Below are positions 7,340 through 25,255 of a DNA stretch of 35,339 nt, in pieces (position 1 is the stretch's first letter; every line of letters starts with the position of its first letter). Below the pieces are notes generated by a model that worked only from the letters and a program-made list of their open reading frames with translations, was not told the DNA's origin and searched no databases. The stretch is from Deltaproteobacteria bacterium (GTDB taxonomy: Bacteria > Myxococcota_A > UBA9042 > DTJE01), in assembly GCA_029555025.1 (NCBI GenBank), contig JAKPTZ010000106.1, forward strand, positions 1 through 35,339, given 5' to 3'. A program made the translations under genes and the position numbers.

Positions 7340-7474
7340 CACGCAGTCTCCAGCTTTTTCAATATGTTGCGGTTGGGGTGGCGTTCATGCACCCCGGGCG
7401 TCTGCGCACGATACCACCGAATGACGCGGATTTGAATCAAGGATTAACGTGGCGCGTCAATTATTGCGTGGGGC

Positions 7475-7564
7475 GGGGGCATCCTGCTCGACCGCAGCGG
7501 GCGGATGTAATCCGCCCGTACAAGGAAAGGGGTGGGGGCATCCTGCTCGACCGCAGCGGGCGGA
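7475..7564. repeat. Two 31-bp direct repeats flanking a strong palindrome
   Basis: An exact 31-bp sequence is present at 7475-7505 and 7534-7564. Its core, GCATCCTGCTCGACCGCAGC, occurs in both copies. The end of copy 1 forms a palindrome with arms CGGGCGGAT (7498-7506) and ATCCGCCCG (7510-7518) around a 3-base loop. The block sits between the stop of the hydrolase lipoprotein and the promoter region of the malic enzyme. It resembles intergenic REP-like elements. Related GGGCGG...CCGCCC hairpins occur at 14140-14204. Confidence 0.75.
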
Positions 7565-7577
7565 AGCGGGGCGGTGG

Positions 7578-15463: not shown

Positions 15464-16129
15464 TTGTACTCAAGGATTCAGAGGCATAAGTTCGAAGCCG
15501 GTGACGATAACGGCTTCCTGACGGCCCGGCCCAATTGTGGTGGCGACACGGGCGTCAACTGCAACGACAACGTGTCTGCCCAGACGTTCGCCGGCCCCTA
15601 TGTGCCCGCCGATCATCCCCAGTTCGGCAAGGTCAGGACCGGCTGTGCCGTCACGCTGAAGGCATACATGATGAATGACGGCCCGGCCGCCCAGCTTCAG
15701 AACATCCAGCCCGGCACGTGCCCGGCGTCTTTCAGCGTAAACGGGCTGCCGGCCCCATTCCCGGTCACGCTTTCGCCACACCAGATGCTGTCGATCGACG
15801 TCACCTATCAGCCGACGGCCGTTGGCCAGGAATCCTGCGCGATCACATGGACCGTTGACGGCAAGGACATCGTCGGCACCGCGAGCGGCGAGGGTACCGA
15901 GCAGAACCAGGTCACAGACACATTCGTGGTGGCCGAAGGCGACGACAGCTTCGACCTTTCGGGCGTTCCGCGCGGGCCAATCGAAGTTTCCATCGATGGC
16001 GTCCCGTGCAGTGATAACTGGATCGTCGAGTTCCCGGACTACAATCCCAGGGCCGTTCCCGGCGAGGGCTGCATCCCCGAAATCGGCGATACCGTGACCA
16101 TCACCTACAGCGTAAGCTGCATCGGCTGA
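15464..16129 (+). CDS. Choice-of-anchor-D-like fragment, probably the C-terminal remnant of a secreted protein
   Basis: The frame is open from 15419 to the stop at 16129 but has no ATG and no ribosome-binding site near the first residues; a TTG at 15464 is the nominal start. The visible 221 residues begin in mid-domain. The part around residues 50-145 fits an ASPM/SPD-2/hydin-type (choice-of-anchor D) beta-sandwich: a Cys-Val-rich strand, then FPVTLSPHQMLSIDVTYQP and GTASGEGTE. A second small beta-domain ends with TVTITYSVSC. No signal peptide is present although the sequence style is extracellular. I read this as a decayed or beheaded gene. The AT-rich junction at about 15440-15470, just after the CapA-like stop, could be a breakpoint. 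Confidence 0.55.
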   Translation: MYSRIQRHKFEAGDDNGFLTARPNCGGDTGVNCNDNVSAQTFAGPYVPADHPQFGKVRTGCAVTLKAYMMNDGPAAQLQNIQPGTCPASFSVNGLPAPFPVTLSPHQMLSIDVTYQPTAVGQESCAITWTVDGKDIVGTASGEGTEQNQVTDTFVVAEGDDSFDLSGVPRGPIEVSIDGVPCSDNWIVEFPDYNPRAVPGEGCIPEIGDTVTITYSVSCIG

Positions 16130-16240
16130 TTCCCCGCGGCGTCCAGTTCAAAAAAGTCCATCGGATGAAAATACGTTTTCGAAATATGTACATGAAATGG
16201 AAATACGCTTTCGTTTTATTGACCCAGCCCCCACGAATTC

Positions 16241-16339
16241 CTTGAAAATGGTAGTTTTCGAGGTGTACCGCCTCTTGAAATAGGATGATTTCGAGGAGTA
16301 CTGCTTCTTGAAAATTGATATTTTCAAGAGTTACAATGC
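16241..16339 (+). repeat. Three tandem 33-bp hairpin repeats upstream of a DUF4143 ATPase gene
   Basis: Units start at 16241, 16274 and 16307, each with CTTGAAA. Within each unit bases 1-8 pair with bases 15-22 around a 6-base centre. Unit A pairs CTTGAAAA with TTTTCGAG, unit B pairs CTTGAAAT with ATTTCGAG, and unit C pairs CTTGAAAA with TTTTCAAG. The position 8/15 pair changes from A-T to T-A in unit B, and pair 3/20 is a G-U-compatible wobble in units A and B. Units A and B agree at 25 of 33 bases and share the GTAC that follows the hairpin. The array ends 29 bp before the ATPase start codon. It is too short and spacer-less for CRISPR. Confidence 0.85.
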
Positions 16340-16368
16340 AACTGTTCATTGGATTCGGGGGTTTGAAC

Positions 16369-17535
16369 ATGATGATTCCCAGGTTTTTCGACGACCTTGG
16401 GCAGTATCTGGCGCCGGGCAAAGTACTTGTCATCTTCGGTGCCCGGCAGGTCGGCAAGACGACGTTGGTCAGGAATTTTCTTCGCAGGTCGTCGCTGAAG
16501 TTCCGTTTTGATTCCGGGGACGACATTCGCATCCAGGAACTGTTTGCGGCTGGTCGCCTGGACCGCCTGCAGGAGTACGCGCAAGGCTTCGATCTGGTCG
16601 TGCTCGACGAGGCCCAACGCGTGCCCGGGATCGGACTGGGCCTGAAGATGATTGTCGACGCCATGCCGGGATTGCAAGTGATCGCGACTGGTTCTTCGTC
16701 TTTTGATCTGGCGGGGCAGGTCGGCGAGCCGCTTACTGGCCGCAAGCGCACGCTGAACCTGTTTCCGGTGGCCCAACTTGAACTGGCGACGATGCATAAT
16801 CGTTTTGACTTGCGGGGAAGACTCGATGAGTACTTGATTTTTGGCGGCTATCCGGAAGTTGTGGCCGCCCAGGGCCGCGATGAAAAAATACGCCTGCTGA
16901 ACGAAATCGCGTCCTCGTACCTGCTGAAGGACGTTCTGGCCCTGGACAACATCAGGAACAGTCGTTCAATCTTCGACCTTCTGCGTCTGCTGGCGCTTCA
17001 AGTCGGCAGCGAGGTGTCCTTGACCGAACTCGGAACACAGGTCGGAATCAGCTATAAGACGGTCGATCGGTACATCGACATACTCGAGAAGTCATTCATC
17101 CTGATGCGTCTTCCCGGCCTGGGGCGCAATCCAAGGACCGACCTGCGTAAGAAGAACAAGTACTACTTCATGGACACCGGGATTCGAAACGCGTTGATAT
17201 CAAATTTCAACCCAACCGACCTGCGAGCCGATTGCGGGCAACTGTGGGAGAACTTCCTTTGCGTCGAGCGAATGAAGCTTCTGTCGTACACGGGGCGTCA
17301 CGCAAATATGTATTTCTGGCGAACCAATCAGGGATCAGAGATCGACCTGGTCGAGGAAGCTGGCGGGGGATTCGCCGGTTTCGAGTTCAAGTGGGGCGTC
17401 AAAGGGCGGTCGCGCCCCAGGGAATGGACCGAATTCGCCCCGAACGGCTCGTGGACCGTCGTCAACAGGGACAACTACCTGGATTTTGTGCTGGAAACGT
17501 CCCTGTTCACTCCACCTGGTCAGCGGGCTCGATGA
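16369..17535 (+). CDS. AAA_14/DUF4143 ATPase with nuclease-fold C-terminus (copy 1)
   Basis: The 388-aa protein has Walker A GARQVGKTT (24-32), Walker B VVLDEAQ with Asp80-Glu81, and a sensor-like ATGSSS. A winged-helix-like part around 210-270 includes LGTQVGISYKTVDRYIDIL. The DUF4143 C-terminus carries a PD-(D/E)xK-type signature: Glu324-x-Asp326, then Glu339-Phe-Lys341. The family is widespread, often multicopy and without a proven role. I chose the first of two adjacent ATGs at 16369, which follows GGGGG by 8 bases; TTG 16315 and ATG 16336 fall inside the repeat array. The last 29 bp overlap the 3' end of the lipoprotein gene on the other strand. A second family member is at 24008-25255; the two share their layout but differ widely in sequence. 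Confidence 0.9.
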   Translation: MMIPRFFDDLGQYLAPGKVLVIFGARQVGKTTLVRNFLRRSSLKFRFDSGDDIRIQELFAAGRLDRLQEYAQGFDLVVLDEAQRVPGIGLGLKMIVDAMPGLQVIATGSSSFDLAGQVGEPLTGRKRTLNLFPVAQLELATMHNRFDLRGRLDEYLIFGGYPEVVAAQGRDEKIRLLNEIASSYLLKDVLALDNIRNSRSIFDLLRLLALQVGSEVSLTELGTQVGISYKTVDRYIDILEKSFILMRLPGLGRNPRTDLRKKNKYYFMDTGIRNALISNFNPTDLRADCGQLWENFLCVERMKLLSYTGRHANMYFWRTNQGSEIDLVEEAGGGFAGFEFKWGVKGRSRPREWTEFAPNGSWTVVNRDNYLDFVLETSLFTPPGQRAR

Positions 17536-23823: not shown

Positions 23824-23904
23824 AAGTTGTGCGGCCATCCCCGGTGCGCGAAACCCGACGAGACATAATTGGTTTCCCCGATTTCGACAACTGCACACTG
23901 AAAC

Positions 23905-23970
23905 CTTGCAATTGGACGAATCGAAACTTGCAATTGGACGAACTGAGGCTTGCAATTGGACGTATCTAAG
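23905..23970 (+). repeat. Three tandem 22-bp iteron-like repeats upstream of a DUF4143 ATPase gene
   Basis: Units begin at 23905, 23927 and 23949 with the invariant CTTGCAATTGGACG, followed by 8 less conserved bases (AATCGAAA, AACTGAGG, TATCTAAG). The core contains the palindromes TTGCAA and CAATTG. The period is two helical turns, so all copies face one side of the DNA. The array ends 37 bp before the ATPase start codon. Confidence 0.9.
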
Positions 23971-24007
23971 GCCATAATCAGACAAGGCTTTTGGTGGTAG
24001 TGGATTA

Positions 24008-25255
24008 ATGTCTGATAAGACGTTGTATCCCAGATTTCTGCGTTCACGGGTTGAAGATGCGCTGACGGATTCCCCGGTTGTCCTGATTCACGGCCCCAGG
24101 CAGTGCGGCAAGACCACTCTGGCCCGCATGGTGGGGGACGATTCGGGATACGCCTACCTGACTTTTGACGATGACGTTCAACGTTCGTCGGCCAGAACGG
24201 ATCCCGTTGGATATGTGGCCGATTTGCCCGACAGGGTGATACTCGATGAAGTACAACGAGTCCCGGAACTGTTTACTGCCATCAAGGTTGCCGTGGACAG
24301 TCGCCGCAAGCCGGGTTCATTCATCCTTACAGGATCGGCCAATGTTCTTCTGGTTCCCCGTCTTGCGGACTCCCTGGCTGGAAGAATCGAAATCCTTCGG
24401 CTGCATCCGCTGTCCCGGGCTGAATTGGTCGGAAGGGCTTGCAACTTCCTGGCAACATTGTTCGGGGCCGGCTTCAAGGCTGGACAGTCCGGGCAACGTC
24501 TGGGAAATGTACTGGCTGAACATATTGTCGGTGGCGGCTATCCGGCCGCCCTGGCCCGTGCAACCTGCCACCGACGGGCCCTTTGGTATCGGGATTATGC
24601 CGATACACTTATTCAGCGCGATATCCAGGACTTGGCCCGAATCAGGGCGCTCGACGCCTTGCCGCGCCTGCTGGCATTGGCAGCGGGGCAGACCGCAAGC
24701 CTGATCAACGTGTCCGAACTCGCGGCCCCGTTCCAGGTCAGCCGCCAGACCATCCGTGAATATCTGACCCTGTTGTCACGGATATTTTTGCTGGAAGAAT
24801 TGCCGCCCTGGCACAGCAATCAACTGAAACGCCTGGTTAAGACCCCGAAGCTGCACATCGGTGATACGGGGTTGGCCTGCGCCCTTATGGGTGCCAATCC
24901 TGGCTCGCTGTGGATGGATCGTCCGTTGTTCGGCAGGTTGCTGGAAAGCTACGTATATCAGGAATTGCGGCGTCTGGCGTCTTTCCGTGATGAATCCACC
25001 ACGTTCTATCATTTTCGCGACAAGGATCAGGTTGAAGTGGATCTTGTGATCGAGTCGGAAGGCCTGGTGGCCGGTGTCGAGGTCAAGGCGGCATCAACGG
25101 TGACTACCGCGGATTTCAAAGGGCTTCGCAAGCTCAAGGACGCCGCTGGAAGTCGTTTTGTCTGTGGTGTGGTGCTGTATGACGGCGCTGCCGTTGCAGG
25201 CTTTGGTGAAAGACTTTACGCAGTTCCGGTTTCCAGGCTCTGGAATGACGAGTGA
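24008..25255 (+). CDS. AAA_14/DUF4143 ATPase with nuclease-fold C-terminus (copy 2)
   Basis: The 415-aa protein has Walker A GPRQCGKTT (29-37), Walker B VILDEVQ with Asp80-Glu81, and LTGSAN as sensor. A winged-helix-like stretch (LAAPFQVSRQTIREYLTLL) precedes the DUF4143 part. The nuclease-like signature is Glu343-x-Asp345 and Glu358-x-Lys360 (QVEVDLV then GVEVKAA), which follows the E-x-D...E-x-K order of PD-(D/E)xK folds. ATG 24008 is the only start with a full P-loop domain. The ribosome-binding site is weak (GGA close to the ATG). The stop lies 18 bp from the end of a convergent Asp-rich lipoprotein gene. The biological role is unknown; a regulatory, mobile or defence role is possible. 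Confidence 0.92.
   Translation: MSDKTLYPRFLRSRVEDALTDSPVVLIHGPRQCGKTTLARMVGDDSGYAYLTFDDDVQRSSARTDPVGYVADLPDRVILDEVQRVPELFTAIKVAVDSRRKPGSFILTGSANVLLVPRLADSLAGRIEILRLHPLSRAELVGRACNFLATLFGAGFKAGQSGQRLGNVLAEHIVGGGYPAALARATCHRRALWYRDYADTLIQRDIQDLARIRALDALPRLLALAAGQTASLINVSELAAPFQVSRQTIREYLTLLSRIFLLEELPPWHSNQLKRLVKTPKLHIGDTGLACALMGANPGSLWMDRPLFGRLLESYVYQELRRLASFRDESTTFYHFRDKDQVEVDLVIESEGLVAGVEVKAASTVTTADFKGLRKLKDAAGSRFVCGVVLYDGAAVAGFGERLYAVPVSRLWNDE

Follow-up and report, generated by a model that had tools for sequence, protein, structure and literature searches.

Phased repeat arrays at the promoters of DUF4143 ATPase genes, probable operators for their own gene product

DUF4143 ATPases and their closest described relatives

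The DUF4143 AAA+ ATPases are listed in PADLOC as PDC-S01, which the available part of PMC12988326 describes as an ATPase fused to a PD-(D/E)XK domain, ranks fourth among the defence families and gives as unvalidated for defence. According to the available part of PMC13356809, no other individual locus is as frequent in rumen genomes as PDC-S01. With respect to an anti-phage role the family is a candidate only. The single hint of how a DUF4143 gene is regulated comes from Thermus, where, according to section 7 of PMC4406477, such a gene was up 6.6-fold with a plasmid, and this only with Argonaute present. Searches of open PMC papers gave no description of an array upstream of PDC-S01 genes, nor do the available parts of PMC12988326 and PMC13356809 give one. 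As shown below, genes of this family often carry arrays that overlap a predicted promoter.

The sister family, the DUF234 ATPases (three of three tested match the PDC-S27 models), resembles PDC-S01 in that arrays lie upstream of the ATPase gene but differs in their spacing, which is 15-16 bp as against 22/23 or 32/33 bp. Among 25 Myxococcota DUF234 genes nine had significant arrays, five at a lag of 15 and one at 16; with another lag range and threshold the counts were six at lag 15 and one at 16, out of 10. The genes with 15-16 bp arrays are L182, L183, L185, L186, L188 and L208. A spacing specific to each family suggests that it mirrors the geometry of whatever reads the array.

Plasmid iterons with their autoregulated initiator and the origin boxes of archaeal ORC/Cdc6 likewise consist of helically phased direct repeats that lie next to a gene for a DNA-binding protein of the AAA+ or winged-helix type. 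The DUF4143 arrays differ from these in that they are chromosomal, belong to paralogues with unlike sites and sit on promoters. By the fold of its first 278 residues, as modelled, the DUF4143 ATPase studied here is like the STAND NTPases, among them 2qen, 2fna, CED-4 and the plant NLRs; to our knowledge, STAND switches have not been described as binding an operator of their own.

The window, by which we mean the whole stretch of 35,339 nucleotides analysed here (contig JAKPTZ010000106.1 of a Deltaproteobacteria bacterium), encodes two DUF4143 ATPases, both of which match the PDC-S01 models of PADLOC (E 4e-136 for the first and 5e-162 for the second). The first, whose start codon is the ATG at 16369 or that at 16372, contains DUF4143, as in the first-pass annotation (PF13635, 132.6 bits, curated cut-off 28.1), and AAA_14 (PF13173, 91.4 bits, cut-off 27), and at residues 203-243 a resemblance to HTH_11 that lies below the Pfam cut-off (E 0.0009). 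Its C-terminus is read as PD-(D/E)XK-like from the description in the available part of PMC12988326 and from its D-ExK residues. A search of NCBIfam gave no match and a sequence search of the PDB no credible relative. The AlphaFold2 model (pLDDT 89), compared over residues 1-278, matched archaeal ATPases best (VIA Z 15.5 for 2qen and 15.4 for 2fna) and CED-4 and plant NLRs with a Z of about 14. The alignment with 2qen (255 residues, rmsd 3.8) covers the nucleotide-binding domain, the helical domain and the winged helix. Orc1/Cdc6 on origin DNA was matched with a Z of 11.8, and MuB was matched as well. The predicted fold is that of a STAND-like nucleotide-binding domain with a winged helix.

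The two arrays of the window

The three 33-bp tandem units before the first DUF4143 gene (Table 1), each with the dyad CTTGAAA-N8-TTTC(G/A)AG, had been noticed in the first-pass annotation and were found again by a repeat search, which recovered the exact 33-bp spacing of the 22-nt cores. The units are identical in 25 of 33 positions (A and B), 19 of 33 (B and C) and 20 of 33 (A and C). Self-alignment of the 250 nt before the gene gave a top score of 20.0, at a lag of 33, while none of 2000 dinucleotide shuffles went above 13.5, so that the array cannot be put down to chance. (Tandem Repeats Finder at a score of 40 missed it, and detected the array of 22-bp units before the second DUF4143 gene.) Searched with zero mismatches, the dyad motif has the array as its sole site in the genome of 3.49 Mb.

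Table 1. Features of the window at the two DUF4143 loci
Feature	Position	Strand	Remarks
Repeat unit A	16241..16273	+	dyad 16241-16262, CTTGAAAATGGTAGTTTTCGAG
Repeat unit B	16274..16306	+	dyad 16274-16295
Repeat unit C	16307..16339	+	dyad 16307-16328; overlaps the promoter
Predicted -35 hexamer TTGAAA	16308..16313	+	in left arm of unit C; 10/12 consensus match
Predicted -10 hexamer TACAAT	16332..16337	+	18-nt spacer; same layout in 83% homologue
DUF4143 AAA+ ATPase (PADLOC PDC-S01)	16369..17535	+	AAA_14, predicted winged HTH, PD-(D/E)XK-like C-terminus (Pfam, PADLOC, AlphaFold2 model)
Second array, three 22-bp units, core CTTGCAATTGGACG	23902..23967	+	cores 23905-23918, 23927-23940, 23949-23962
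Predicted -35 TTGCAA	23950..23955	+	inside last unit of second array
Predicted -10 CATAAT	23973..23978	+	17-nt spacer
Second DUF4143 AAA+ ATPase (PDC-S01)	24008..25255	+	directly 3' of 22-bp array

By consensus match, TTGAAA-N18-TACAAT (16308-16337) is the only promoter-like site within 16100-16480; all promoter calls in this work are such matches, made in non-model bacteria. From the usual promoter spacing the transcript is predicted to start near 16344, just past the end of the array. Since this sole good promoter overlaps unit C, the array is expected to lie upstream of the transcript and not to be transcribed from that promoter.

A homologue of the first locus with 83% identity (L067/L073, the same gene as L030, from a Myxococcota bin of the same genus) has two units at 33 bp, in which the outer arms CTTGAA...TTTCGAG are kept and the inner pairs are broken, and an equal promoter layout, TTGAAA-N18-TAGAAT. 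A homologue with 59% identity (L074) has kept the layout of three units of 33 bp with a different sequence. The first-pass annotation had stated that two findings would count against its proposals, orthologues without upstream repeats or conserved pairing and an array situated upstream of the transcription start with no protein bound to it. The array is predicted to lie upstream of the start, which in part counts against them; both homologues, however, have 33-bp arrays.

The second array differs from the first in both sequence and spacing, and its CTTGCAATTGGACG core is likewise confined to its own locus in the 3.49-Mb genome.

Elsewhere in the window (7460-7570), between two minus-strand genes, a GC-rich stretch (catcctgctcgaccgcagcgggcgga) is present in two nearly identical copies at a distance of 59 bp.

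Arrays across the family, on plasmids and in viral contigs

DUF4143 genes were collected with a purpose-built profile HMM, the sampling leaning to Myxococcota and to the matches with the best scores. Matches starting after profile position 25 or ending before 230, those with less than 150 nt upstream and redundant ones were left out (the redundancy step taking 153 to 144). The resulting 144 genes are mostly from Myxococcota, supplemented from plasmids, viral contigs and a handful of named genomes. An upstream repeat was significant (p 0.05 or better against 40 shuffles) in 51 of the 144 non-redundant genes, and in 33 of these 51 the best lag was one of four among 46, namely 22 (n = 3), 23 (n = 7), 32 (n = 10) or 33 (n = 13). 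By the same test, downstream regions had one of these four lags in 5 of 137 cases, upstream regions of other genes in 4 of 136 and gene interiors in none of 144 (Fisher's exact test, 3e-7 against other genes and 1e-11 against interiors). The genome from which the window comes has 13 DUF4143 genes, seven of which have their best self-lag at 33 (L004, L007, L008, L010, L012) or 22 (L002, L009), with sequences that are all different.

Twelve further plasmid-borne genes were picked blind to their upstream regions. Six had a significant repeat, all at 22/23 bp (from Rhizobium, Pseudohalocynthiibacter, Novosphingobium, Roseivivax, Collinsella and Lentilactobacillus), a check that is not fully independent because four of the six (L212-L215) are clade-mates of the query. 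The plasmid set tests the clade more than the family at large, the distant members being L216 and L221; L213 and L215 share 89% identity and do not count as independent. Of 57 genes in a second set, mainly high-scoring ones from Myxococcota (three partial, one short and five redundant matches having been dropped), 12 were significant, four at lag 22 or 23 and several as simple GC-rich repeats, with one interior control also significant (binomial 0.008 for the concentration of lags). Array-bearing genes occur in Myxococcota, Verrucomicrobia (L069), Bacteroidota (L101), Spirochaetota (L103), Actinomycetota (L216), Bacillota (L221) and Pseudomonadota (L107, L212-L215 and, by genus name, L071). 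Arrays are nevertheless far from universal: most DUF4143 genes, chiefly those in high-GC hosts, have no detected array. With multiples of the period counted, one was detected in 33 of 99 genes with an upstream GC content below 0.55, compared with 12 of 119 at 0.55 or more.

For comparing arrays with each other a set of 161 genes was used, which includes the survivors of the plasmid genes and possibly contains a few relatives of the DUF234 type (L187). The 35 arrays analysed had a significant spacing or a multiple of it; L187, L091, L096, L118 and L077 were left out as weak two-copy or GC-rich repeats. The stacked arrays have two to four copies and mostly end near the start codon. Judged against permuted columns, the units are palindromic in 11 of the 18 arrays of the 32/33 class and in one of the 17 of the 22/23 class. 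For 29 of 35 genes the array is overlapped by the best sigma-70-like site of the upstream 250 nt (shuffles 14.1, sd 3.0, highest 20), an excess that is partly confounded by the A+T richness of the arrays.

Sites tend to be more alike the higher the protein identity (Mantel r 0.355, p 0.0005), whereas GC similarity shows hardly any correlation with them (r 0.10, p 0.09). For 33 of 35 arrays the nearest protein neighbour falls in the same spacing class (17 expected). One type, CTTnCAATTGGnCG, is common to Myxococcota and alphaproteobacterial ATPases of one clade. Four tandem DUF4143 matches in 5.7 kb (L110, G004:C131:51700-57400, and L036) come with three unlike arrays of 23, 23 and 32 bp. In 377 Myxococcota genomes the two-copy 22/23-bp motif pattern was found at two loci (L002 and L061), both before DUF4143 genes. 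Array sequence and spacing follow the lineage of the ATPase, even across distant hosts. Since site and ATPase seem to travel together, the ATPase itself is the simplest explanation of who reads the site.

Viral contigs gave 33 and 3 loci when scanned with alignments and no match when scanned with single ATPase proteins; a two-copy search there for the window's own 33-bp motif gave none. The 22/23-bp pair was found in eight viral contigs, in only one of which (L301) it precedes a DUF4143 gene. In three (L297, L300, L303) it lies inside long reading frames and looks like chance. In the closely related L298 and L302, in L299 and in L304 it stands near the start of other viral genes as a two-copy operator of the CAATTGGNCG type, with the core extended to TGCAATTGG or TTGCAATTGG and no DUF4143 gene in the stretch examined. 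The control spacing of 26/27 bp occurred in four contigs, always inside reading frames.

What the arrays may be

We propose that the arrays are helically phased operators which are probably bound by the DUF4143 ATPase encoded by the adjacent gene and serve its autoregulation; for the window array the most likely role is that of a DNA switch within the promoter of its gene, which belongs to one of the commonest suspected anti-phage families. A spacing close to two or three helical turns (three for the 33-bp period, as noted in the first-pass annotation) places all copies on roughly one face of the DNA. We infer binding by the ATPase, its oligomerisation and repression from the observed position, phasing, privacy and co-inheritance of the arrays. 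The ATPase would recognise its own array, most likely by the winged helix-turn-helix, binding the palindromic 33-bp sites as a dimer and the 22-bp sites in a single orientation. By oligomerising along the array it would cover the promoter and repress its own gene. Because in this model the promoter is blocked by ATPase on the array, a stimulus that alters the nucleotide or oligomeric state of the ATPase would release expression.

It is unlikely that another protein, be it a host regulator or one from a mobile element, recognises the arrays in place of the ATPase, even though the comparison by protein part gave site correlations of 0.33 for the AAA, 0.30 for the wHTH and 0.37 for the nuclease part and so does not single out the HTH, and viral contigs have the 22/23-bp pair before genes that do not encode an ATPase. 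In related STAND ATPases the winged helix does not necessarily bind DNA. The motifs, however, differ among the DUF4143 genes of one genome and are common to one ATPase clade across phyla, which argues against a host factor, from which the opposite pattern is expected. The first-pass annotation had taken the base changes as a sign of selection for a structure, an RNA hairpin or a DNA cruciform, one of its options being a leader RNA that controls the ATPase. On the RNA reading the units would be transcribed, and their hairpins would govern translation of the ATPase mRNA or its termination. A hairpin is indeed possible in each unit, with the 8-bp stem and 6-nt loop described there (favoured by the folding program for unit B; for A and C it prefers 9 bp and a 4-nt loop), and the swap of A-T to T-A in unit B was confirmed, as was the G-U pair. 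The array region also folds better than shuffles (z -4.16), as is expected of any palindromic repeat, and contains one terminator-like stem, near the level of chance. The minimum-energy fold, however, pairs the units with one another and does not form three hairpins, the best promoter lies in the last unit, and searches of the window for Rfam families, tRNA and tmRNA gave no match. Nor is the swap significant as covariation: among five units, three from the window array and two from the 83% homologue, one pair has changed on both sides, which 303 of 500 shuffles equal, and the closing pair of the stem is unpaired in two of the five, the inner stem being lost in the homologue. A common RNA mechanism does not fit 16 of 17 arrays of 22/23 bp, since these have no dyads. 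A hairpin with covariation was therefore rejected as the main reading, and RNA control is improbable.

That the array consists of initiator-type sites, like iterons or the origin boxes beside an ORC/Cdc6-like AAA+ initiator, at which a small mobile unit replicates, is partitioned or transposes, is about as improbable or slightly more so. It would agree with the AAA+ fold and its ORC/Cdc6 and MuB matches, with helically phased repeats beside the gene and with the many DUF4143 copies on plasmids. Between the window and the 83% homologue array and ATPase reading frame are similar and the flanks dissimilar, so that array and ATPase may move as a unit of about 1.3 kb. (The downstream neighbour has its orthologue L227 in a sister genome, where no ATPase stands beside it; the ATPase contig there is too short upstream.) Against an initiator stand the 13 copies in one genome, of which the array-bearing ones each have other sites, and the location on promoter-like sites; terminal repeats, a target-site duplication and an empty site were not demonstrated. 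Several chromosomal copies that differ from one another are harder to square with sites for replication or transposition. Neutral tandem duplication near the gene can hardly be credited: tandem repeats are common in intergenic DNA and some of the significant lags are simple GC-rich repeats, but the histogram of lags, concentrated on 22, 23, 32 and 33, contradicts it, as do the dyads and the conservation of arrays within lineages. On this point the first-pass annotation, which had seen a selected site and not a decaying repeat, was borne out. While its observations were confirmed, its interpretation is supported in part, and among its options a binding site for the ATPase, with binding as yet inferred, is the one now favoured.

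Going beyond autoregulation by the ATPase, one may speculate, with considerable doubt, that DUF4143 and DUF234 ATPases are self-addressed switches, in which a private phased DNA address (15-16, 22/23 or 32/33 bp, according to family and clade) directs the assembly of a STAND-like ATPase. The array would be operator and sensor in one, and DNA coming in would trigger or titrate the ATPase-nuclease if it bore the address, competed for it or disturbed it. If so, the pairs in the viral contigs L298/L302, L299 and L304 would be decoys or captured operators, which on their small numbers is possible. The gene-specific arrays are the first concrete handle on PDC-S01, offering a predicted ligand, a predicted mode of control and a code readable from the sequence, consisting of spacing class and motif. 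This code may serve to split sub-families, to predict which paralogue belongs to which site and to test how these ATPases are held silent and by what they are released.

A possible third class of array is represented by L151, L158, L162, L248 and L259, which have two copies about 59-61 bp apart, some with dyads that by eye are long.
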